Part shown: piece after piece, positions 4,081 to 28,135 of the stretch
How positions within the stretch are numbered: position 1 is the first letter of the stretch
Layout: each line of letters opens with the position of its first letter
Source: a virus
IMG/VR virus record: IMGVR_UViG_3300027759_000240
Coordinates: 1-34,903 of that record
DNA length: 34,903 nt
Strand: one strand, 5' to 3'
Program-made: the position numbers and the translations under genes
Notes under the pieces: model-generated
Told to the model about the DNA's origin: nothing
The model's database searches: none
What the model saw: only the letters and a program-made list of their open reading frames with translations

Positions 4081-5538
4081 ATGATACCATATACACTCAA
4101 TTTAATTTTAGAACAACGTTATAATAATAATCTTAACGGTATCAAAGAAGTTACATCTGGTATTTCATTTAGAAAATGGGTTGAGTGCAAATTGCTAAAT
4201 GAAGGTGGAGAGACAGATGTGTTATTTAAATTGCCTGAATTTATTAAAGGTGCATCAGAAGCTGCAAAAGCTGCAAGATTAGCTAAAGAAGCAAAGGCTG
4301 CAGCTGAAGCTTTAAAAACAGTTGAAGGCTTAAAAGCTGCTGAAGCTTTAAAGGCTGCAGAAGCTGCAAAAGCTGCTAAGAATGCTGAAGAAGCTGGTCA
4401 AATTATTAAATTTTCAGAAAAGTCATTGAGCGAAATTCAAAAAGAAGCTCAAGAGTTAGCTCTACGTGGTAATACACCGGAAGAAATAAGAAAAGCACTT
4501 TCAGGTAAATACAATATTCAACCAGGAAAGGCTTCATCTGAAGCATTGAAACAAGCTGAAGAAGTTATCGCCAGAGCAGAAAAAGCTGGTAATGAAGCTG
4601 CAGCAGCTCGTAGTGCACGTGTTACAAGAGAAAATAGAAGTACTTTAACTCCAGAACAAAAAGCAAGAGAAGCGGAATTTACTAAGCCAACATCTGGACC
4701 AGAGATAAGTCCAAAACCAAAACCACGAGGACCAGTTAAAAGTTTTATACAACTAAGCATAGAAAAAGCTGTAGCAGAAGCTAAAAAAGCTGCACAAACT
4801 GCAACAGCATCTGTAGCTATTACTGCTTCTACAGTAACTGGAACACCTGGTGTTGCAATCGAAGTTGCACGACCAGTTCCAGCATCTGTGACTTCCGGAG
4901 AAGGAGTTAAAGCCGCAGAAGGAGTTGGTTCAACAACTGCGCCTCGAGTCGTTAAACCAGTAGAACCAGTTAAAGCACCAGAGAAAGCTCCTCCTAAAGC
5001 ACCAGAGAAAGCTCCTACCGTAGCACCTACTGTCACACCGGCAAAAGCACCAGAGAAAGCTCCTCCTAAAGCTCCGGAACAAGCTCCTCCAAAAGCACCC
5101 GATAAGGCTCCCCCAAAAGCTCCGGAACAAGCTCCTCCAAAAGCACCAGCTAAAACTCCGGCCAATGTATCAGATAAAGTACCAGATAAAGTTCCCCCTA
5201 AAGCACCAGACAATGTACCAGATCCTGCTAAAGTAACAGATCCGGCTAAAACACCAGATCCTGCTAAAGTACCAGATCCTGCTAAAGTACCCGATGAAAA
5301 ACCTGCCAAAGCAGACAATTCTGATAAGGGTGATGGTAAAGGTGATGATGGTCAAGATGGTAAGGGTCCGGACGGTCCACCTTATGTACCTCCTATCATA
5401 CCACCTATTGGTATGGGTGGCAGTAGTCCAAAAAGAGGATCCCAAGAATATGCCGCAAAAGGAAGGGCTCAAGACATTGATTTGGGCTTAGGCGCAGAAG
5501 CAATGGGTCAGTTCTCTAAGCGTTATAGAATCCTATAA
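4081..5538 (+). CDS. Ala/Lys-rich protein with KAP-type Pro repeats
   Basis: 485 residues, no enzymatic domain. Order: an N-terminal segment with FRKWVECKLLNE (30-41) followed by Gly, which looks like a targeting or pro-segment ending in an (L/I)xE site; an Ala/Lys/Glu-rich helical region at about 55-190; then from residue 298 a Pro-rich array (KAPEKAPPKAPE and relatives, later DPAKVPDPAKVP); an acidic Gly/Asp stretch (about 410-440); and a short C-terminal region. The array resembles bacterial histone H1-like tails and extended periplasm-spanning linkers. Its place among late genes suggests a head-internal DNA-binding or structural protein. The function is not known. Confidence 0.65.
   Translation: MIPYTLNLILEQRYNNNLNGIKEVTSGISFRKWVECKLLNEGGETDVLFKLPEFIKGASEAAKAARLAKEAKAAAEALKTVEGLKAAEALKAAEAAKAAKNAEEAGQIIKFSEKSLSEIQKEAQELALRGNTPEEIRKALSGKYNIQPGKASSEALKQAEEVIARAEKAGNEAAAARSARVTRENRSTLTPEQKAREAEFTKPTSGPEISPKPKPRGPVKSFIQLSIEKAVAEAKKAAQTATASVAITASTVTGTPGVAIEVARPVPASVTSGEGVKAAEGVGSTTAPRVVKPVEPVKAPEKAPPKAPEKAPTVAPTVTPAKAPEKAPPKAPEQAPPKAPDKAPPKAPEQAPPKAPAKTPANVSDKVPDKVPPKAPDNVPDPAKVTDPAKTPDPAKVPDPAKVPDEKPAKADNSDKGDGKGDDGQDGKGPDGPPYVPPIIPPIGMGGSSPKRGSQEYAAKGRAQDIDLGLGAEAMGQFSKRYRIL
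4972..5310 (+). repeat. In-frame tandem repeats coding KAP/PAK units
   Basis: Degenerate 9-27 base units of the type aaagctcctcctaaagca encode repeated Lys-Ala-Pro and later Pro-Ala-Lys-Val-Pro-Asp. Synonymous changes between copies show selection for the peptide, and repeat number may vary between relatives. Confidence 0.8.
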
Positions 5539-5586: not shown

Positions 5587-6255
5587 ATGGCTATTATATC
5601 TACTAAACAATTTGTTCACAAGCCGTTATTACTTGAAGGTTCTTTAAATGAAGTATCTAGTACTGGACCTAGAATGTATAATACACCAGAAGGAATTTTT
5701 CCTTCTGTAACTACAGTCGTAGGGTTTCGTAAACAAGAGTTTTTTGCTGAATGGAGACGAAAGAATCCAGAAGAAAGTAAACGAGTTCTTGCTAGAGGAA
5801 CTAAATTTCATAGTCTTATTGAAAAATATTTAAACAATGAAGACCTAGACTATGACAATCTTCATTCTGGAATTAAATCTTTATTTTCAATTCTAAGACC
5901 AGAGATCGACAAAATTGATAATATTGTAGCATTAGAAACTCCACTATGGTCTAAGATATTGGGTCTAGCAGGAAGAACAGATTGTATTGCTGAATATGAT
6001 GGAAAACTTTCTATTATTGATTTTAAAGCAAGTACAAAAGAAAAACGAACCAAAGATGTTGATAACTACTTTGCTCAGGCTACAGCCTATTCATTAATGT
6101 TTCAAGAACGAACCGGTATTATTATTGACAATTTTGCAATAATGATTGCATGTGAAGATGGTCTTCATCAAGTATTTCAAGATAAACCAATTAACCATGT
6201 TAAACATTTAAAATTCTTGATTACAGATTATAGGAAACATCATGACACAGTATGA
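5587..6255 (+). CDS. PD-(D/E)XK exonuclease, MGME1-like
   Basis: 222 residues with the ordered motifs of RecB/MGME1-type single-strand exonucleases of T4-like phages: GTKFHSLIEKY (H75, E79), GLAGRTDCIAEYDG (D132), IIDFKAS (D145, K147) and YFAQATAYSLMF (Q164, Y168). The Asp/Asp/Lys set coordinates the metal ion for DNA hydrolysis. It likely trims DNA ends in recombination-dependent replication or host DNA breakdown. The start is supported by a GGTGA ribosome site. The downstream NUMOD gene begins inside its last codons (14-base overlap), so the two are co-translated. Confidence 0.85.
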   Translation: MAIISTKQFVHKPLLLEGSLNEVSSTGPRMYNTPEGIFPSVTTVVGFRKQEFFAEWRRKNPEESKRVLARGTKFHSLIEKYLNNEDLDYDNLHSGIKSLFSILRPEIDKIDNIVALETPLWSKILGLAGRTDCIAEYDGKLSIIDFKASTKEKRTKDVDNYFAQATAYSLMFQERTGIIIDNFAIMIACEDGLHQVFQDKPINHVKHLKFLITDYRKHHDTV

Positions 6256-6841
6256 ATCACGTTCATTAGAAGAAACCGTAAATACACGCGGAACCAAACT
6301 ATGGACACAGATGAACGACAATTCAAAATCTGTAAAAGCCAGACATCTATTTGTTCAAGAACATGGTGGATTCTTTCGTCGAGAAGGTAGATATTGGAAA
6401 TGGATTACTGATGTTGCTACCAAAAATGGTTATTGGTTAAAGAGAGTTGACACAGAAGAAAAAGTCTTTTTTTCTAATATGGGAGAATTTGCTGCCATAC
6501 ACGGTATGACATCAAGTAAAATATGTGAACTTTTAAACGGTACTCGTAAAACTTATAAAGGTTGGACTGCAGTAGAGGTTAGACCAATCATGGAGGTTGG
6601 TCCACGAGTCAAATTAAAGGAACCAGTTAGAAAAAAGGTCATAAAAACCAAATCTACTATTCTTCTAGAGATGACAACAAATCAAGTTATTCCTGTGACA
6701 AATTTAAAAGAATTTGCAAGGAACAACAATCTCTCTTATACTGGAATTAAAAGTTTAGTAAATGGGAAGATAAAAACCCATAAAAATTTTAAATTATACA
6801 ATCCTCTGGAAGAATATAAGGATTCGTCAGAGCCTAAATAA
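6242..6841 (+). CDS. NUMOD/IENR1-type DNA-binding protein
   Basis: 199 residues. Two short helix-turn-helix-like repeats are visible: VFFSNMGEFAAIHGMTSSKI with LLNGTRKTYKGW (75-108), and IPVTNLKEFARNNNLSYTGI with LVNGKIKTHKNF (150-183). They match the NUMOD1/IENR1 modules that give homing endonucleases DNA specificity. No HNH or GIY-YIG catalytic domain is present, so this is either a stripped homing protein or a repurposed regulator. A Trp/Arg-rich segment (FFRREGRYWKWITDV, 44-58) precedes them. It overlaps the exonuclease gene by 14 bases. DNA binding is likely; the target site is unknown. Confidence 0.7.
   Translation: MTQYESRSLEETVNTRGTKLWTQMNDNSKSVKARHLFVQEHGGFFRREGRYWKWITDVATKNGYWLKRVDTEEKVFFSNMGEFAAIHGMTSSKICELLNGTRKTYKGWTAVEVRPIMEVGPRVKLKEPVRKKVIKTKSTILLEMTTNQVIPVTNLKEFARNNNLSYTGIKSLVNGKIKTHKNFKLYNPLEEYKDSSEPK
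6834..6840 (+). promoter_or_regulatory. Late promoter box CTAAATA
   Basis: CTAAATA overlaps the end of the NUMOD gene and ends 7 bases before the ATG at 6848, the spacing expected for a leaderless late transcript. Confidence 0.6.
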
Positions 6842-15999: not shown

Positions 16000-18900
16000 A
16001 TGCATCCGATTTTACTTAATACCAATATATCAGCATCAAGTGCGTACAGTAATCCAATGGTTTTTGGTTATTGGTGGACAGTACCATATAATAATTGGAA
16101 TCAAGGAGAAACATGGGGCGGTCAATATGGTTTAACTTATATGTATCCCATGGTTCCAGGTGCTCCTGGTATTCGTGGTCCTAGTAAAGCAGCATTGGCT
16201 GGTAACTGTTTTGCAACAAATGCAGTTGATGATACATGGATTGGACATGGATATGATCCATTTACATCCAAATATTATATTGATTGGACAGAATCACCTT
16301 GGAATAGTGCTACTGGATATATTGGTTTAACTTTTGGAAATACTGGACATATTGGTCTTACCACAATCAATAATATTGCGAATTATTATTCATGGATTCC
16401 ATTTAAAAATAGAATTTTTGATAATCCAAGACATTATAATGCTTTAGTTAGTAATTCTGGTATAACAAATTCTGAAAATTTAATTAATATACCAAGCGAT
16501 TCAGTATATGGAAGTCCTGGTAAACCATCAATACGTACTCCTTGGGTAAAACGTAAAATGCAGTTTTTAAGAAAAGAATTACAAAATACTTGTAAAGTAT
16601 TAGGTAATACTGGATTCTTAATGAATGGCTTTGAATATGATGATGAAATGTATATCTTTTGGGATTTTAGAAATATTGGTGTTTGTGGTAGTTGTGCTAG
16701 TATAAATTCTGGAAATACTTCATTTGGAAATTTCTTTTTATATCCTAATAATACACCAACTGGAAGTACATGGTATGCATCATATACTGGAATATGTGCA
16801 GCCCCAGATGCATTAATAGCCCGTGGAATTAGTTCTTTTAGATCATATCTTTTAAATCACGGGTATACAACAAATTCAAATGATGCAAAATTTGTTGATG
16901 GTATCACTGCCATGGGTACTCTTGATACAATTTCCAATATTGCAAAATCTGGTAGTAGAGATCAAGCCACACCAAATGAATATGGTGCTGTTTTAACGGA
17001 TTGGATTGCACTACACTGGCAAGATTATGCAAATGATTTTAAATCATATAATGGATTAATTGCAGATAATAGTTTACTTGCTTCATATGGTTATTATAAA
17101 AATGATGTGGGGATACAAGGTTATACATTTGCAGCTTTAAACAATTCATTTACAGGATTAATAAAACAATCTTCTACGGATTTTATTCCATATCCTACTT
17201 CTATTATAAACAGTAGTAGTGTTGATCGAAGAAAAACAGCGTACTATGCATTTAATGCATTGAGTGCATTTTCATCTCCAGGATTTGTTCAACGTGAAGT
17301 TGCGGGAACAATAGATTCGATTTATCCATATGGTGGATTATTTAATTTTATTGAAACAAGACAAAATTCTTTACGTAACTTAGATAGAAAAAAATTATTT
17401 TATGGAAATTCATATAGTAATGGAACTACGTTTGGAATTTATGCAAACTACAATTGGCAATTATCCCAAGTACTTGGTTTAGCCAATGAAGCCCCATTAT
17501 GGTTCGTGCCTACAAACTATTTAAATTCAACATTAGCAGGACAAACATTTAGAGCATCAGAATGTTATGAAATTCATGGACTTTCTGCAGCAAAAAGATA
17601 TGATCCATCTGGTGTTCTTGGTGCTAGCAATGGCTCAGTAAATCGATGTGGTGACAATAAAGCTCCTGGTTGGATTCCATGGAATTTAAATCCAGTATGG
17701 GGAATTACTGCAATAAATGTTAATTCAAACTATGGTCCAGCCAACCATATCCCATTGCGTGGACCAAGTATTTTAAATGGCTTGACTATGGGTGCTATCA
17801 GTAGACAATGGTTGGGTACATCTACTAAATGGGATGCTAGTCATTTTGATTCTTGTGGCTTCCCATTACCTGGAAATACATTACCGGGTGGATCCATATA
17901 TAACCAATACTGGAGTCATTGGTACCCAATGGCATTCATGGCTTTATTATATGATGTAAATTGGGGAAGACAAGTAGCAGTTGGAAATGTTTACAGAGCC
18001 GCCGCTCAAAAAGAAGGATTGTTAGAGAGTGTTCCCGGATCAATATGGAATGGTATTCAAAAACCAATTAATACTTGGCTTGTAGACCAAAAATTATATT
18101 TATCTGGAGATTATTCAAGTGTTGCTGATAATGATTTATCGCAAAATATGGGTCTCGGTGGTCAAACATATGTTCCTACTGGTGTTACCTTCGGATATCA
18201 CATCACTGGCAATGTTGCTACTGGTGTGACACAATTTGTTGGTGAACAAGGACCTATGTTTTATGAAAACATACGACACCAATATTTGAATAAAACTGGT
18301 AGATTTTTACATTGGAATCCTTCAGCTTATAGTTGTGTAACAAGTGCTGTTGGTGGACAAGTATTAGTAGATAATAGAGGTGTTCCAGGATATTATAGTG
18401 GAATAACTTGTTTTGGTATTTGTGGTGCTATTACAATGAATCTTGCAAGAAAAACAAATCAAGTAATTGGTGAATGCAATCTTCTTGGTAATGGAATGGT
18501 AAATCAGACAGTCTATCTTGCACCTTCTAATTTAGATGAGCAATCATATCTTATGTCTGGTTCACAAAAAATTGATGGACAATATTTGTGGAGAATTACA
18601 TTTGCCAATCCTGCTACCAACCCATCACCATTAATAATACGTGGTTCTGTTAGTGGAGTAACTACAGCATATAATATTAGTGGTGTTACGGATTATATTA
18701 ATAATTCAAATAGTAAATTTGGTGTTTGGTGGAATAGTGGAAATTATGAAATTCCAATTGTTGAGAATCCTCCAATTCCAGAAGCATTGCGTAGAGGCAT
18801 TGTTAATCTTCCAAACAATCCAGAAATAATGTATAATGCTGTAACCACAAACGAATCTAGAAATAGTATTCCTGTTGGTTATGAAAATCCAGATCTATTT

Positions 18901-21900
18901 GGACTATTAAATGTTGCTCCTTATAATTTATATAAAGATGGTTTGACATGGGGAAGTCAAAATGGTTTAACATATATGTGGCCAATAATATTTTTTGGTA
19001 TGATGGGTGTTGTTGGTCCAAGCAGATCTAATTTGGATGCTGGTATATATCCACTTGCAACTGGTGCAGGATATGCAACAGATGAAAGTTGGGCTGCAGT
19101 TGGTACTGATAAATACGGTACATCCGACTTAGGTAATAGTGCTGGACCATGGATTACGGCAACTGGATATATTGGATTGACGTTTGGAGCTCCGAACTTC
19201 TTTGATAAAAGAACAGCATATGAAGCTGTAAGGCTTTATTCATGGATTCCAAATAAATACAGAACATTTTTTCCAAGTAGATCTTGGAGAGCAATTCTTG
19301 GTGTTTATACTAAAGGAATTCAAGATACAGAAGTAGTAAATTTAACCACTACAGGAACTACATATTACACACCATGGCTTAAACGTAAAGTAGAATTTGC
19401 AAAAGCAGAATTAAATGCTTTTTATACTATTTTAGGTTCCTGTGGATTTACCATGGCTCACTGGGAGATGGATGATGAATATTATAATTGGTTTGATTTA
19501 AGAGGTATTGGTGGTAGTGTTGGAGATACTGGATTTTATCAAAAATGGTTATATCCAAATAATTCTTCAACAAGTAGTAAATGGTATTCGTCTTTTACTG
19601 GTATATGTGCTGCTCCAGATTATTATGTTACTCGGGGCATAACTTCTATGCGATCTTTCTTATTAACAAGAGGTTGGACTACAAATCCTTCATCTTGGAA
19701 ATATGTTGATGGTATGACTGCTATGAATAATGCAGAAATACCAGGTAACATAGTTGCTTCTGGGTCACCTGATATCTGGTTAAGCCAAGAATATACTTCA
19801 GCCATGAAAGATTGGACTGCAGGTATGATGAATGATTTAGCAGATCATTTTAAAACCTCTAATGGAATTGTTGCAGATAATTCATTATCTGGAAACTATG
19901 GATATTATAAAACAAATCACGGAACGAAAGGATACAATGTTCCAAGTTATAATAATCCTTCAAATAGACCATATTTAACTGGACAAATAAATTGGTCAAG
20001 TAATGATTATGTTCCCTATCCATTAAATGCATCTACTAGCACTTATGATAGGCCGATGGCAAACTATTATTCCTTTAATGATATGTGGCCGTCATTATCA
20101 TCAAATCAATCAGTATACGGAGTCAGAGTAGGTGATATTGATAATATTCATACTTATGCTGGTATTGGTGGTCAAATTGATATGACATCCAATAGCCCTG
20201 TAGTAGTAGATAGAAATCTTGATTACAGAGGAAGTTCATATCAATTTGCAAACAATGGTAATACATTTGGTAAAAATAATATTGCAACTTGGCAAATGCG
20301 CTATAGATATAGTGTTTTAGGTTCTCCAACAAATAGTTCAACAAAAAAATGGTTACCAGATAATTATTTAAATTCAGGAATAGCCGGACAGGTTATTGAC
20401 TTTTATGGATGTGCTGAAACAGTTGGAAGTTGTGGGTTTAAAGATTTTGATCCAACAGGAGCATCTTTGTCAACAATGTGTCATCCTGCAAAATGTGGAA
20501 CGGATAGATCACCCCTATGGATGTCATGGCATTTAAATCCTGTATGGGGAATTAATAAAAATAATTTGGTTGCAGGTGCAACCTTTGGTCCTGCAAATTA
20601 TATTCCAATTAAAGGTCTTGAAATATTAAATGGTAGAACAGCTGGTTCCAAAACTTTAGAATTGTTAAGGGGATCTACTACTGGAATACCAACATGGGAT
20701 GTTGATTATTTTGATCAATGTGGGAATCCATGGCCAGCTAATACATTACCTGCCGGAACAATTTATAATCATTACTGGACAAACTGGTATCCAATGGCAT
20801 TTATGGCATTACTTGCTGATGTAAAATGGGGACGGCATATAGCAACTGGTAATGTAACATGGGCAAAATTCCAAAAATCAGATCCAATTAATTATCCTGC
20901 ATTAGCACAGTCTAAATGGAACGGAATACAGAAACCAATTAATACATGGGTAGCAATAGAAACATGGAATAATGATTATGATGCTGCTAATGGACCCGAT
21001 CTATCAAAAAATATAACATATGGAAATTATTATTATGTTTCAAAAGGAGTAACGTTTGGTTATTATTTAAATGGAACCAAAGCATTGGGGGTTAATTTTG
21101 AATATGGTGAAGCTGGACCAATGCATTTTGAAAATATAAGACACCAATATTTAAATAAGACAGGTAGATTTACATATTGGAATCCAATTACATATTACAA
21201 TGGTACATCTTCTGTTGGTGCACAAACTCCTTGTGAAAATCAAATGTTCCCAAGAAGCTATGCCTCAAATCAAACTTTTAATCCTCCATTGGCTAATGGT
21301 TTAACATTCTATGGATGCTGTGGTGCAATTTCATACAATCAGGCAAAACGATTAAATTCTATTATTGGAGAATGCCACACTCTTGGAAATGGTATTGTAT
21401 GGGAAACTGTTTATCTTGCTCCAGTTAACATGGATGAACGTTCTTATTTAATGTCTGGTGCTCAAAAGGTTGATGGAAATTATTTATGGAGAATCACATT
21501 TGCTCATCCTGCTACACAATCTCCAATTATTGTAAGAGGATCGGTGAGCGGAATAACAACCGGTTATAATGTTAGTGGAATTACGAATTATATCTATGAA
21601 CCAAATAGTAAATTTGGTATATGGTGGACTACAGATCGTTATGAGATTCCAATAGTTGAAAATCCTCCAGTATCGGAAGCTGAGAGATTAGGTCTATTGA
21701 ATCTTCCAGAAAATCCAGCGTTTGAATATGATCCATTGACTATGACTGAAGCCAATACAAGACCAAAAATTAATGCGTTTGCTTGGCAGTGGCCAAATGA
21801 ATGGGTATGGTCTGGAAATGAGTGGTCTAGATCTGATAATTCTAAAAATCTAATATCGTTTAGTCAAGATATGAATTTGAACACTATTCCTGGTACTTAA
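16000..21900 (+). CDS. Giant fibre/adhesin protein with two tandem modules
   Basis: 1966 residues. Two copies of a module of about 940 residues follow each other (about 22-945 and 967-1915). Shared landmarks include WGxQ/SxGLTYM, ATGYIGLTFG, an acidic motif E-(Y/M)-DDE-(M/Y)-Y (E212/D214/D215/E216 and E1156/D1158/D1159/E1160), LNPVWGI (N564, N1513), WYPMAFMALL, WNGIQKPINTW, ENIRHQYLNKTGRF and YLWRITF. The aromatic, Gly/Asn/Ser-rich make-up suits a phage fibre or spike. The conserved acidic cluster suggests a glycosidase-like barrel, but no family is confirmed. It ends with NLISFSQDMN, which looks like the first strand of a carbohydrate-binding domain continued in the next gene. A late box lies 30 bases upstream. 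Confidence 0.75.
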   Translation: MHPILLNTNISASSAYSNPMVFGYWWTVPYNNWNQGETWGGQYGLTYMYPMVPGAPGIRGPSKAALAGNCFATNAVDDTWIGHGYDPFTSKYYIDWTESPWNSATGYIGLTFGNTGHIGLTTINNIANYYSWIPFKNRIFDNPRHYNALVSNSGITNSENLINIPSDSVYGSPGKPSIRTPWVKRKMQFLRKELQNTCKVLGNTGFLMNGFEYDDEMYIFWDFRNIGVCGSCASINSGNTSFGNFFLYPNNTPTGSTWYASYTGICAAPDALIARGISSFRSYLLNHGYTTNSNDAKFVDGITAMGTLDTISNIAKSGSRDQATPNEYGAVLTDWIALHWQDYANDFKSYNGLIADNSLLASYGYYKNDVGIQGYTFAALNNSFTGLIKQSSTDFIPYPTSIINSSSVDRRKTAYYAFNALSAFSSPGFVQREVAGTIDSIYPYGGLFNFIETRQNSLRNLDRKKLFYGNSYSNGTTFGIYANYNWQLSQVLGLANEAPLWFVPTNYLNSTLAGQTFRASECYEIHGLSAAKRYDPSGVLGASNGSVNRCGDNKAPGWIPWNLNPVWGITAINVNSNYGPANHIPLRGPSILNGLTMGAISRQWLGTSTKWDASHFDSCGFPLPGNTLPGGSIYNQYWSHWYPMAFMALLYDVNWGRQVAVGNVYRAAAQKEGLLESVPGSIWNGIQKPINTWLVDQKLYLSGDYSSVADNDLSQNMGLGGQTYVPTGVTFGYHITGNVATGVTQFVGEQGPMFYENIRHQYLNKTGRFLHWNPSAYSCVTSAVGGQVLVDNRGVPGYYSGITCFGICGAITMNLARKTNQVIGECNLLGNGMVNQTVYLAPSNLDEQSYLMSGSQKIDGQYLWRITFANPATNPSPLIIRGSVSGVTTAYNISGVTDYINNSNSKFGVWWNSGNYEIPIVENPPIPEALRRGIVNLPNNPEIMYNAVTTNESRNSIPVGYENPDLFGLLNVAPYNLYKDGLTWGSQNGLTYMWPIIFFGMMGVVGPSRSNLDAGIYPLATGAGYATDESWAAVGTDKYGTSDLGNSAGPWITATGYIGLTFGAPNFFDKRTAYEAVRLYSWIPNKYRTFFPSRSWRAILGVYTKGIQDTEVVNLTTTGTTYYTPWLKRKVEFAKAELNAFYTILGSCGFTMAHWEMDDEYYNWFDLRGIGGSVGDTGFYQKWLYPNNSSTSSKWYSSFTGICAAPDYYVTRGITSMRSFLLTRGWTTNPSSWKYVDGMTAMNNAEIPGNIVASGSPDIWLSQEYTSAMKDWTAGMMNDLADHFKTSNGIVADNSLSGNYGYYKTNHGTKGYNVPSYNNPSNRPYLTGQINWSSNDYVPYPLNASTSTYDRPMANYYSFNDMWPSLSSNQSVYGVRVGDIDNIHTYAGIGGQIDMTSNSPVVVDRNLDYRGSSYQFANNGNTFGKNNIATWQMRYRYSVLGSPTNSSTKKWLPDNYLNSGIAGQVIDFYGCAETVGSCGFKDFDPTGASLSTMCHPAKCGTDRSPLWMSWHLNPVWGINKNNLVAGATFGPANYIPIKGLEILNGRTAGSKTLELLRGSTTGIPTWDVDYFDQCGNPWPANTLPAGTIYNHYWTNWYPMAFMALLADVKWGRHIATGNVTWAKFQKSDPINYPALAQSKWNGIQKPINTWVAIETWNNDYDAANGPDLSKNITYGNYYYVSKGVTFGYYLNGTKALGVNFEYGEAGPMHFENIRHQYLNKTGRFTYWNPITYYNGTSSVGAQTPCENQMFPRSYASNQTFNPPLANGLTFYGCCGAISYNQAKRLNSIIGECHTLGNGIVWETVYLAPVNMDERSYLMSGAQKVDGNYLWRITFAHPATQSPIIVRGSVSGITTGYNVSGITNYIYEPNSKFGIWWTTDRYEIPIVENPPVSEAERLGLLNLPENPAFEYDPLTMTEANTRPKINAFAWQWPNEWVWSGNEWSRSDNSKNLISFSQDMNLNTIPGT
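16064..18870 (+). repeat. Fibre module, first copy
   Basis: First of two diverged tandem copies of about 2.85 kb in the fibre gene. Matching landmarks recur 944-966 codons later. DNA identity is patchy, so the duplication is old. Ends are approximate. Confidence 0.75.
18898..21770 (+). repeat. Fibre module, second copy
   Basis: Second copy of the fibre module. It keeps the acidic ExDDE motif, LNPVWGI, the WNGIQKPINTW segment and the closing EIPIVENPP segment. Ends are approximate. Confidence 0.75.
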
Positions 21901-21910
21901 TAAATAAGGA
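21899..21910 (+). promoter_or_regulatory. Late box AATAAATA with AAGGA ribosome site
   Basis: AATAAATA (21899-21906) overlaps the stop of the first fibre gene and runs into AAGGA (21906-21910), 10 bases before the ATG at 21921. Confidence 0.5.
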
Positions 21911-21920
21911 TTCTATTACA

Positions 21921-24900
21921 ATGCCTACTAATGTTTGGTCATATCAAAATATTCAATCAGTACAAACAGGTATAACTGCTCCAGATGGATCTACTACTGC
22001 TTTTGCTTTTAGAACACTAGCTTCTGCGGGGGCATATGCAGCAATCAGACAACAACAATTTGATTTAACACCAGGAACAACATATACTTTTTCTTATTAT
22101 AGAAATATATCATTAGGGGCTACTGGTGGTTCATTTAGAATTAGAGATGTAACTGGTTCATGTGCTGCATTTGATCTTCAACCAAGTATGTCTTTTACAG
22201 GTACTGGTTGGATAAGATATGATACTTCATTTTTTATGGGTATAACTCAGACAGGAGTAGATTGTTATATTTTAAGTAGAAGTAATTCAGCCTCAGAAAC
22301 TGCTGGTGTTACAGTTTGTCTTTGGGGTGCTCAACTTGAACAAGGTGGTGTAACTACCGCTTATTCCAGAAGTCTTGGTTTTAGAGATCTTCGTGGAGGA
22401 TGTGTTGGTCGATTTGGTTCTATAGCTGACTATAATGAAAAGGATTGGTTAAGTTATGCTACGAGAAATAATCTAAATTATGTTTCTCCTTTTGTTAATT
22501 TTTATAGAATTTCAGGTTGGGGGATCAACAATACATCTGGATGGACACAAAACTCTGAAATGCAAAGAGTTATAAGTAAACTAACAAACCTTCCAGTTTG
22601 GTCAGCAAAAAAAGCTTTTCAACCAACTTTATTTAATAGAGAAGATTGGTTTAAATTCACTGGGGATAAAATTACTGCAACTGGAGCAGCTAGTTTGCAG
22701 TATTATGGAAATACGTATCCATTTACATCTTCAAATATATCAAACAGTTATCCAAGTCCATGGACTGATTTTGGTATTAGTGGTGCTTCAGGATTTTATA
22801 ATCAAGTTTTAAATATTTTTAATTCTAATAAAATTCAATTAGATTATGTTATAGGAGATAACGAATCAAATTATCCACAAACATGGGGCGTTGCAGTTAC
22901 AACTGGTGGCATTTCTGGTTATCTTGCTGATCCCAGATATTATCAATCTTGGAAAGGATTATCTTCATGGAGTTCATATATGAATTTTTATGGAGTGACT
23001 GCTGGAAATGGACAATTAATAGGACCAGGAGTAAATAAAACTGCATATCTTGTTTGGAATCATTTAACACAACAACATCAAGCTGTTGCAATGAATGAGA
23101 TGTGGGCAAATGCAACTCTACAGCAGTCTCCCAAAGCATTAGTTGCTAATTATGATTATTGGGTTTCAGATGGTGGACCAACTGCAGGTGCTCCTGATGC
23201 AAATGGACACCCGCAATTTAAATCAAAATATGTTGGTAATGCCTCGTCTCCGTATTTATACGGAGAAGTTGGACAAATAGACTCAACTGTTTCTCCGGGA
23301 AATGTATTTGTACGACCAGAAAATCCGACATTCTTAGTATTAGCTGTTTCTGGTGCAACCGGAATAACTTTGACAAAGGGACCATGGACAAGCTTTACTA
23401 AAGCAATTCAAGAAGTTCGTAGTGCCAAACGAGGTTCACCAAATGTTCCTATGGTGCCATGGATTGGTTCGGTACGCTATGCTGGTGGTGTTGGTCAAAA
23501 TGATCCAACACTTGCGCCAACAGTTGGTTTTGCTGATATGGACAAAGGTTATTCACCAATAATGGGATATACATCAAATGTTGGTGGAAATTCAGCTTAT
23601 TATTATGAATTAATAAAACATGTTTGTTTGCATGGTGTTAAATCTATTGGTTATTGGAATTCAAGTTCTTTTAGTCTATATGAAAATGGCAACCAAATGA
23701 GTGATAGAGACTACGCGGCTAGGGGATATACAAGCTATGTTAAAGATATTGTAGCATTTAATAATGCTTTAAAAGATGTAAATGATAATTTAGGTGGTTA
23801 TACATTAGCGACAGCCGATTCAAGTCGTGTAAGTTGGTTGGCTAAAAACATTACTAGCGGAGCTCCAAAAATAGATGGATCATATTTATGGAGAGCAACA
23901 ATTAAACCAGGAACAATATATGAACACACAACAACGGATAATACAAATTTTATTTTGAGTGGTTCGAATGTTGGTAAATGGTTTAATACTACAACAACAA
24001 CACCACCAGATGTGCGACCATTAGAATTAAAAGATGTATTTTATTTTCCTGGGGTTTATTCTACAGATGGAACAGTAAATGAACATGGTACAGGAACTAC
24101 TTTAGCAAATTGGTTTGGTACAAATAAATCTGTTATTGCTGCATTCCAAGGTGATCGGTATACTGATAATTTTGGAACTAAAATTATAAATGGTAGAGCA
24201 TATGAATTTGAAATGGATCCAGCTAACCCAACAGTTACAAGTCCATGGCACAATGCAATATATGAAAACTGCATAGATCCATATATGTGGGGAGCAAGAA
24301 GTTTTACATTCTTCCAACCACATGGTCAAATTCCTCAAGTAGCATATCCATTCCGTGAAATAACACGAAGAGCCGAGGGTTATTATAATAGCACCACCGA
24401 TGCATCTAAGTCTCCGGCTCGTTGGAAAGGATTTACTTCTGGTATTCGTGCATTATTAGAAGGAAAATTAAATCCAATTGGAGCATGTGCTGCAAAAACC
24501 GGATTTACGGCTATGACTGAACCATGTAATGTTCATGTATATCTTCCATCAACAAATGGATATTGGGAAGATAGATTTGGAAATATAGCCGCAGGACCGG
24601 CAGGAAATACATTTTATCCAGGATCATTGGTATTCTGGGATAAATGTTTTACAGATTCTGGTGGATCTATAACTGCTGCTAATAATTTATATTATGCATC
24701 TGTAAATCAATGGCTTGATGAATTTATTAGTATGAAGAGCCCAAATATAACTGCGGGTATTTTATCATGTTCTATTGATGCTACTACGTGTTCTGCGACT
24801 CCCAATACTGTAGGATTATTTGCAACATTACCAGCAGCATATACTCGAGGAAATTCTTATGAACTGACAGACTGGTACATCAGTCAAACATTAAGAGCAA

Positions 24901-25808
24901 ATAATATTCCTGTATATTGTGAGGCAAGACCACAGAAAACATTCAGTCTATTAAATTCTGGAATAACTTCTGGAAATATTGCATCAATACCTGGATTGTG
25001 TGGTGCAACAGCAATAAGTCAATGGACAAATCATTTTTCTGTTGAATATAATATCTGGTACACCAATCCAAATAATCCGGTATTAACAACTCAAGATCCA
25101 AATTATGCAGGAGCTCTTCCAGATTCAGAAGCCCCTTCTGTTATGCGATATTCTCAAAATTCTGGACCAATTCCCAATAATAGAGATCCTTATCAAATTC
25201 CATTAATAGTTGCAACTGGTGGTACAGCATATACTTTACCATATGGGTTCACATCTTACACAGATTCACCACAGAAAGCATTATTGGATTTATATAGTGC
25301 AAGTGATGTATATCGTAAATTTAATAATTTTGCCAATACTGGATTAACATTTAAAGGTGTAGTATATGATAAGATGACAAGAGGAATCTTATTCACATCA
25401 TATGGTGATTGGGCAAGAGGTACATGTGGTAATATTGAGATTAATGCAACGGCTAATAGTGGAAGTTTGACGGGATATTATAAACCACAGACTGATAATG
25501 CAAGTGAAGGTAACAGAATTGGATATGGACCAACACAGCCAAGAAAATTTGATCGTACAGCATTTATAGCAAGTACAACAAAGTATGCTAATAATGCTGC
25601 AGGTCAATCTGGATATTGGACATCTAGTGGTATTAGTTTTTGGAGAGATAATGTTAAACAACCAACCTTTAATGGGTTCTTGGAGATGTTAAAACAGGTA
25701 TCATTAACTGGATGTCCAAAATATGGCAATACTGCAGGATGGACAGGTGCAACATATCCAAATGATTTTTATGGTTTAGGTATATTCCCAAAATCTATGA
25801 GACCTTAA
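21921..25808 (+). CDS. Second giant fibre/adhesin protein
   Basis: 1295 residues. Residues about 1-150 look like the jelly-roll carbohydrate-binding domain common on phage fibres: VWSYQNIQ, TAPDGSTTAFAF, LTPGTTYTFSYYRN, then VCLWGAQLEQGG and TAYS. The usual opening strand (NLLxYSxxF) is missing here and instead ends the preceding gene. About 155-690 is a module with IGDNESNYPQTWGV and a closing KIDGSYLWRATI (from K650) that matches the end of the modules in the previous gene. About 700-1295 is a further aromatic, Gly/Ser-rich region without a recognised family. A receptor-binding or glycan-degrading role is inferred. Confidence 0.72.
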   Translation: MPTNVWSYQNIQSVQTGITAPDGSTTAFAFRTLASAGAYAAIRQQQFDLTPGTTYTFSYYRNISLGATGGSFRIRDVTGSCAAFDLQPSMSFTGTGWIRYDTSFFMGITQTGVDCYILSRSNSASETAGVTVCLWGAQLEQGGVTTAYSRSLGFRDLRGGCVGRFGSIADYNEKDWLSYATRNNLNYVSPFVNFYRISGWGINNTSGWTQNSEMQRVISKLTNLPVWSAKKAFQPTLFNREDWFKFTGDKITATGAASLQYYGNTYPFTSSNISNSYPSPWTDFGISGASGFYNQVLNIFNSNKIQLDYVIGDNESNYPQTWGVAVTTGGISGYLADPRYYQSWKGLSSWSSYMNFYGVTAGNGQLIGPGVNKTAYLVWNHLTQQHQAVAMNEMWANATLQQSPKALVANYDYWVSDGGPTAGAPDANGHPQFKSKYVGNASSPYLYGEVGQIDSTVSPGNVFVRPENPTFLVLAVSGATGITLTKGPWTSFTKAIQEVRSAKRGSPNVPMVPWIGSVRYAGGVGQNDPTLAPTVGFADMDKGYSPIMGYTSNVGGNSAYYYELIKHVCLHGVKSIGYWNSSSFSLYENGNQMSDRDYAARGYTSYVKDIVAFNNALKDVNDNLGGYTLATADSSRVSWLAKNITSGAPKIDGSYLWRATIKPGTIYEHTTTDNTNFILSGSNVGKWFNTTTTTPPDVRPLELKDVFYFPGVYSTDGTVNEHGTGTTLANWFGTNKSVIAAFQGDRYTDNFGTKIINGRAYEFEMDPANPTVTSPWHNAIYENCIDPYMWGARSFTFFQPHGQIPQVAYPFREITRRAEGYYNSTTDASKSPARWKGFTSGIRALLEGKLNPIGACAAKTGFTAMTEPCNVHVYLPSTNGYWEDRFGNIAAGPAGNTFYPGSLVFWDKCFTDSGGSITAANNLYYASVNQWLDEFISMKSPNITAGILSCSIDATTCSATPNTVGLFATLPAAYTRGNSYELTDWYISQTLRANNIPVYCEARPQKTFSLLNSGITSGNIASIPGLCGATAISQWTNHFSVEYNIWYTNPNNPVLTTQDPNYAGALPDSEAPSVMRYSQNSGPIPNNRDPYQIPLIVATGGTAYTLPYGFTSYTDSPQKALLDLYSASDVYRKFNNFANTGLTFKGVVYDKMTRGILFTSYGDWARGTCGNIEINATANSGSLTGYYKPQTDNASEGNRIGYGPTQPRKFDRTAFIASTTKYANNAAGQSGYWTSSGISFWRDNVKQPTFNGFLEMLKQVSLTGCPKYGNTAGWTGATYPNDFYGLGIFPKSMRP

Positions 25809-27841: not shown

Positions 27842-28135
27842 ATGAAACGATTTAAAGAATTTCTAGAAGAATCTGCTGCATGGCAACGCAAAGAAGGCAA
27901 GAATCCCGAAGGTGGATTGAATGCCAAAGGTGTTGCTTCATATCGTAAAGAAAACCCAGGTTCTAAATTACAAACAGCAGTGACTACCAAACCATCTAAA
28001 CTCAAACCTGGATCAAAAGCAGCAAAAAGAAGAAAGTCGTTTTGTGCAAGAATGGGTGGAATGCCGGGACCGATGAAAGATGAAAAGGGTAGACCAACTA
28101 GAAAAGCACTATCTTTGAGAAAGTGGAATTGCTAA
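27842..28135 (+). CDS. DUF6321-like protein with capsid-targeting N-terminus
   Basis: 97 residues. MKRFKEFLEE (1-10) followed by Ser aligns with the T4 internal-protein targeting peptide MKTYQEFIAE without gaps, with LxE at 8-10 as the cleavage site. The rest (AWQRKEGKNPEGGLNAKGVA, later RRKSFCARMGGMPGPMKDEK and ALSLRKWNC) matches what I recall as DUF6321, a small basic domain of phages and giant viruses with unknown function. Its charge suits binding of DNA in the head. Its stop overlaps the next start (TAATG), so two tagged proteins are coupled. Confidence 0.78.
   Translation: MKRFKEFLEESAAWQRKEGKNPEGGLNAKGVASYRKENPGSKLQTAVTTKPSKLKPGSKAAKRRKSFCARMGGMPGPMKDEKGRPTRKALSLRKWNC

Follow-up and report, generated by a model that had tools for sequence, protein, structure and literature searches.

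A carbohydrate-binding-type domain divided between two adjacent phage fibre genes, and its possible role as a joint between their products

Two adjacent fibre genes in a viral contig of 34,903 nt (IMG/VR record IMGVR_UViG_3300027759_000240; the whole stretch analysed is called the window) together encode a single carbohydrate-binding-type jelly-roll domain, with the first strand at the C-terminal end of the first gene (gene 1) and the remainder at the N-terminal end of the second (gene 2). It is likely that the tail of gene 1 completes the N-terminal domain of gene 2 and tethers the gene 2 product to the virion, following a single fission of an ancestral fibre gene. The split is carried by three contigs (the window, L001 and L106), and all sequences compared here are metagenomic contigs of uncultured phages.

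A domain divided between two genes

The features of the locus are listed by position in the window, all on the + strand.

16000-21900, +: gene 1 (1966 aa), consisting of a leader, two tandem units of ~940 aa and a tail predicted to complete the domain
16000-16026, +: leader MHPILLNTN, a putative virion anchor, shared with the joined gene of L010 and with gene A of the L001 contig
16045-21753, +: the two tandem ~940-aa units between leader and tail, absent from L010
21760-21897, +: 46-residue C-terminal tail RPKINAFAWQWPNEWVWSGNEWSRSDNSKNLISFSQDMNLNTIPGT, which aligns in frame with joined orthologues
21844-21873, +: KNLISFSQDM, the motif for the first strand of the jelly roll, within gene 1
21898-21903, +: tandem in-frame stops TAA TAA at the end of gene 1, likewise present at both other split junctions
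21899-21906, +: box AATAAATA resembling a T4 late promoter, which overlaps the stops; L001 has it too, L106 does not
21906-21910, +: ribosome-binding site AAGGA, 10 nt ahead of the ATG and shared by 3/3 split junctions
21921-25808, +: gene 2, a 1295-aa fibre protein that begins inside the domain, with a C-terminus homologous to the joined L104
21921-22376, +: CBM4/22-like GTA_spike_fiber domain minus the first strand

An earlier note on this DNA had placed the residues NLISFSQDMN, thought to be the first strand of a lectin-like domain, at the end of gene 1 and the rest of that domain at the start of gene 2, and both were located there. The strand region and the end of gene 1 read KNLISFSQDM-NLNTIPGT, with the protein ending in ...SDNSKNLISFSQDMNLNTIPGT before two stops, and gene 2 starts with MPTNVWSYQNIQ...TAPDGSTTAFAF...WGAQLEQG. 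When all 40,661 ten-residue words in the six frames of the window were scored with a motif derived from 152 different members of the family, KNLISFSQDM ranked first (16.9 bits, next 10.7 bits). The N-terminus of gene 2 alone matched positions 20-170 of the 182 positions of the NCBIfam profile NF048003 (GTA_spike_fiber) with 57.9 bits, and preceded by the tail strand it matched positions 6-170 of 182 with 71.4 bits, both above the curated cut-off of 36 bits; joining tail and domain in L001 raised the score from 59.4 to 73.4 bits. The motif NLLxYSExF followed by a tryptophan does not occur in one polypeptide here, as the motif is in gene 1 and the tryptophan with the rest of the domain in gene 2, and the full pattern appears only when both products are taken together. 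At the level of sequence, a strand donor and a strandless acceptor thus lie on separate chains.

A profile built from relatives of the domain also reaches Rcc01080, the head spike fibre of RcGTA (E 2e-52), as well as baseplate proteins from the phages E217 and Pa193. A Pfam scan gave nothing above the cut-off, tblastn of each full gene against the INPHARED phages gave no match, and the tandem ~940-aa units of gene 1, which have diverged from each other, had no Pfam or PHROG match above threshold. Homologues of gene 2 that naturally lack the strand, or homologues of gene 1 that carry the tail alone, had been named beforehand as evidence against a divided domain, and neither kind was encountered: none of the 168 other copies of the domain (94 loci) is cut off before the strand region, and no tail was found without gene 2. 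In 163/168 of these copies the match begins no later than profile position 5 within a single ORF, and the remaining five sit in ORFs extending far upstream.

The junction between the two genes

Gene 1 ends with KNLISFSQDMNLNTIPGT, followed by TAA TAA, AAGGA and the ATG of gene 2 at 21921, in a frame that differs from that of gene 1 (offset 2). The junction of L001 is almost exactly like that of the window. In L106 the break falls in the same loop, but the residues differ, the spacer is longer, the frame offset is 1 instead of 2 and the late box is missing. The stop, the late box, AAGGA and the new ATG in another frame, which had been interpreted as an inserted start unit, were all found at the join in the window. 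At the split junctions the stop, AAGGA and ATG are conserved but the late box is not, and since it occurs in only two of the three split members, a promoter cassette is not an essential part of the split; the gain of stops, AAGGA and ATG stands as the part of the proposed start unit that all three share.

The join sits in a loop of naturally variable length, and the net gain (stops, AAGGA and ATG) compared with the joined L104 is about 26 nt in the window and L001, and 34 nt in L106. The residues LNTIPGT following the strand align with NLTSIDND of L104 and are probably native loop rather than insert, which led us to reject a 44-nt insert flanked by direct repeats of ACTA, and means that the exact insert cannot be delimited. 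A sequencing or assembly error was ruled out by the presence of the split in three contigs, with two different junction sequences, and by purifying selection across the split.

Elsewhere in the window, four genes (at 27842, 32931, 33879 and 34412) share the N-terminus MK[KR]FKEFL, which is similar to the N-terminus that targets the internal head proteins of T4 to the capsid, and three of the four have a AATAAATA start unit just upstream. An HNH/homing-endonuclease-like ORF (6242-6841) overlaps the end of an exonuclease gene.

Joined relatives and the origin of the split

Relatives with one continuous gene were searched for, as the earlier note had proposed. Scans with gene 2 alone or with two-sequence alignments returned only L001, and wider alignments (A3 and A4) returned joined relatives. 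In L104 the tail and the domain are in one ORF of 1602 aa, which is 64% identical to gene 2 and shares its C-terminus; L104, L105 and L103 are three contigs with the same sequence here, and have AFAWAWPNQWVWSGEYWTRSDNSKNLAAFSENLNLTSIDNDQSAVW in one ORF. The single ORF of L010 (47% identical to gene 2) consists of the leader MHPILLNTNLSSANRF, then RPEIIAFAWQWPNQWVWSGDDWYRSWNSVNLFANSEDL, then the remainder of the domain, with leader and tail only a few residues apart. Sister phages thus have a single-gene relative, as in branched two-gene fibres. L104 also has a second, intact copy of the domain at residues about 1203-1336, which gene 2 of the window does not have.

In a tree of five sequences, with L010 on a long branch, the split members were monophyletic against L104 and L010 (support 99/98). 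Because the split members form one clade, the fission is derived and represents one event, and the simplest reading of these sequences is one old fission followed by drift of the junction. The proposal that one ancestral fibre gene was cut is supported by the joined orthologues and the split clade, but does not extend to most of gene 1, in which only the leader and the last ~46 residues are parts of the ancestral fibre. The joined gene of L010 and gene 1 of the window both begin with the leader MHPILLNTN, and the DNA upstream of it is very similar in the two.

A second fibre-gene split was observed in L001 (positions 5121-5185), where genes A and B are separated by a stop in a TCATAAATAATAGGA box, then an ATG. 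Genes A and B together correspond to one continuous ORF in L106, and in L110 one ORF of 2890 aa spans the B region and sequence upstream of it. Giant fibre genes may thus have been split more than once in this phage group.

The tail occurs with gene 2 on different upstream proteins

Three upstream proteins of different build all end with the tail, and each is followed by gene 2. Next to gene 1 of the window, these are a 938-aa protein in L001, with a weak heparinase-like match below the Pfam cut-off, and a 2707-aa protein in L106, which combines the window type and the L001 type. The tail is 91% identical at the end of the L001 upstream gene, which otherwise differs from gene 1. Across the block at 21759-23913 the window and L001 share 85% identity, a similarity that does not continue into the DNA just upstream. 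The upstream protein of L001/L106 has relatives in L109 and in L110/L111, which end with ...RVIVTP and ...KLIVTP, respectively, just before the tail position. No gene 2 follows the upstream fibre in L110, and the next gene (MKHLENYYRNL...) resembles the gene after gene 2 in L001. As the upstream-type fibres of L109 and L110 stop just before the tail, the tail, judged from these neighbours, belongs with gene 2.

Structure models and selection on the tail

We modelled the domain of gene 2 by itself and its counterpart in L104, a naturally joined orthologue; as the alignment behind the models contains the strand, these are no independent test of a two-chain complex. The models match CBM4/16/22/61 modules and have a jelly-roll fold of CBM4/16/22 type, with Z up to 8.6 without the strand and up to 11.7 with it. 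For the strandless gene 2 domain, CBM4-2 (2y6j) aligned only from its residue 33 (Z 8.2), and for the intact L104 domain from its residue 1 (Z 11.4). In the intact orthologue the motif was placed confidently (pLDDT 87, residues 31-40), and DSSP assigned no regular strand to it. Since the gene 2 domain alone still gave a fair jelly-roll model (mean pLDDT 69, equal to the intact one), the first strand may not be strictly needed for the fold.

Such a self-sufficient domain would fit a tail that is an evolutionary leftover without a partner, retained on gene 1 only as part of one DNA block with gene 2, and the way in which the block at 21759-23913 moves as a unit is in line with this. We consider it unlikely, as the tail is under purifying selection among the split members: its codons differ by 10.5 synonymous versus 3.5 nonsynonymous changes between the window and L001 (P about 1e-5 under neutrality), and by 16 versus 9 between the window and L106 (P about 3e-7). 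For the nine strand codons alone, a small number for such a count, the window and L106 differ by 6 synonymous versus 2 nonsynonymous changes (P 6e-4). This selection spans a divergence that saturates synonymous sites, and includes L106, with its drifted post-strand residues and spacer. The lack of any other copy cut off before the strand also argues against a leftover.

In another reading the tail would be a docking element in its own right, a conserved WVWSGNEW hairpin for some other part of the virion, with the homology to the strand being incidental to its present role. The pre-strand segment AFAWQWPNEWVWSG is indeed the most conserved stretch across the split and joined members, and was modelled as two short strands. 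This explanation is improbable, since every joined member has the domain after this segment, upstream proteins without gene 2 lack it, and the strand codons are themselves conserved. Production of one continuous protein by frameshifting or stop read-through, for which the 19 open codons ahead of the ATG in the gene 2 frame of the window and L001 might speak, is very hard to reconcile with TAA TAA at all three junctions, the frame offset of 1 in L106 versus 2, the conserved AAGGA-ATG start that serves gene 2 and the lack of a canonical slippery heptamer on inspection by eye; the tandem stops and changing offset rule out a programmed frameshift.

A possible joint between two fibre proteins

Completion of the gene 2 domain by the tail of gene 1 would have the following history. 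The ancestral fibre gene would have encoded a leader, a short linker segment, a CBM-like jelly roll and an enzyme-like body, and a single split inside the loop after the first jelly-roll strand, via gained stops, a ribosome-binding site and a start codon, would have left gene 1 ending with the linker segment and first strand, and gene 2 starting with the remainder. The tail of gene 1 would insert into the gene 2 domain and complete it, holding both products together, and the leaderless gene 2 protein would be attached to the virion through gene 1, with the shared domain as the joint. Reassembly by strand complementation is suggested by the purifying selection and by the absence of a leader on gene 2, and the presence of MHPILLNTN on gene 1 only suggests attachment of the second protein through the first. 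In L010 the leader is in the same chain as the domain and it is now on gene 1 only, and therefore gene 1 carrying the gene 2 protein is the simplest reading. From these comparisons we infer a physical complex, its attachment to the virion and sugar binding. It is an even question whether the jelly roll is a natural plug-and-socket joint, in which the strand and the Trp-rich segment would be a tag on exchangeable upstream fibres and the downstream protein the socket, so that recombination could swap the upstream protein, as in the three builds seen, with the joint unchanged.

Comparison with known systems

In the donor-strand complementation of pili and in the engineered SpyTag/SpyCatcher pair, a strand of one protein completes the beta-sandwich of another. 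We know of no sequence relation between these systems and the fibres described here, where in contrast the strand would join two fibre proteins and would have arisen by gene fission. A domain of the same type as the joined domain of the window (NF048003) is known from Rcc01080/GhsB, the head spike fibre of RcGTA (PDB 6tb9); in RcGTA and all other copies examined it is one polypeptide, whereas in the window it is divided over two genes. Cell binding by the RcGTA head spike fibre rises with capsule (PMC10218006). The best structural matches to both models were the baseplate proteins E217 gp45 and Pa193 gp46 (PDB 8env and 9b45, Z 10.6 to 15.5), which are sequence relatives but have a single-chain domain. 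In E217 it is a loop of gp45 that holds the fibre (PMC10329688), rather than a split domain shared by two proteins.

The T5-like phages DT57C and DT571/2 have two fibre genes, encoding LtfA and LtfB, where T5 has one, and LtfB is carried to the virion by LtfA (PMC4728585). In the description consulted here, LtfB attaches by an N-terminal region of its own, which has a relative in a phiEco32 fibre, and no single domain shared by LtfA and LtfB is described. LtfA donates beta-strands to LtfC, which anchors LtfA on LtfC (PMC10713586). Split fibre genes are already known, as for LtfA/LtfB. Our search of the PMC literature, mostly papers outside subscription journals, found no published case of a fibre domain split in two, of a naturally split CBM that joins phage fibres, of one fibre completing another by a strand, or of two fibre proteins with a carbohydrate-binding domain in common.

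Conclusions

Phage fibres are long chains of receptor-binding and enzyme modules, with few known cases in which separately encoded parts pair. In the fibres described here, the joint seems to have been made by a gene fission that fell within a domain and not at a boundary between two, and both the joined relatives and a tail-free control are still present in nature. If true, the two proteins would form a natural tag/catcher pair that is directly testable, and would provide a route to exchangeable fibre modules.
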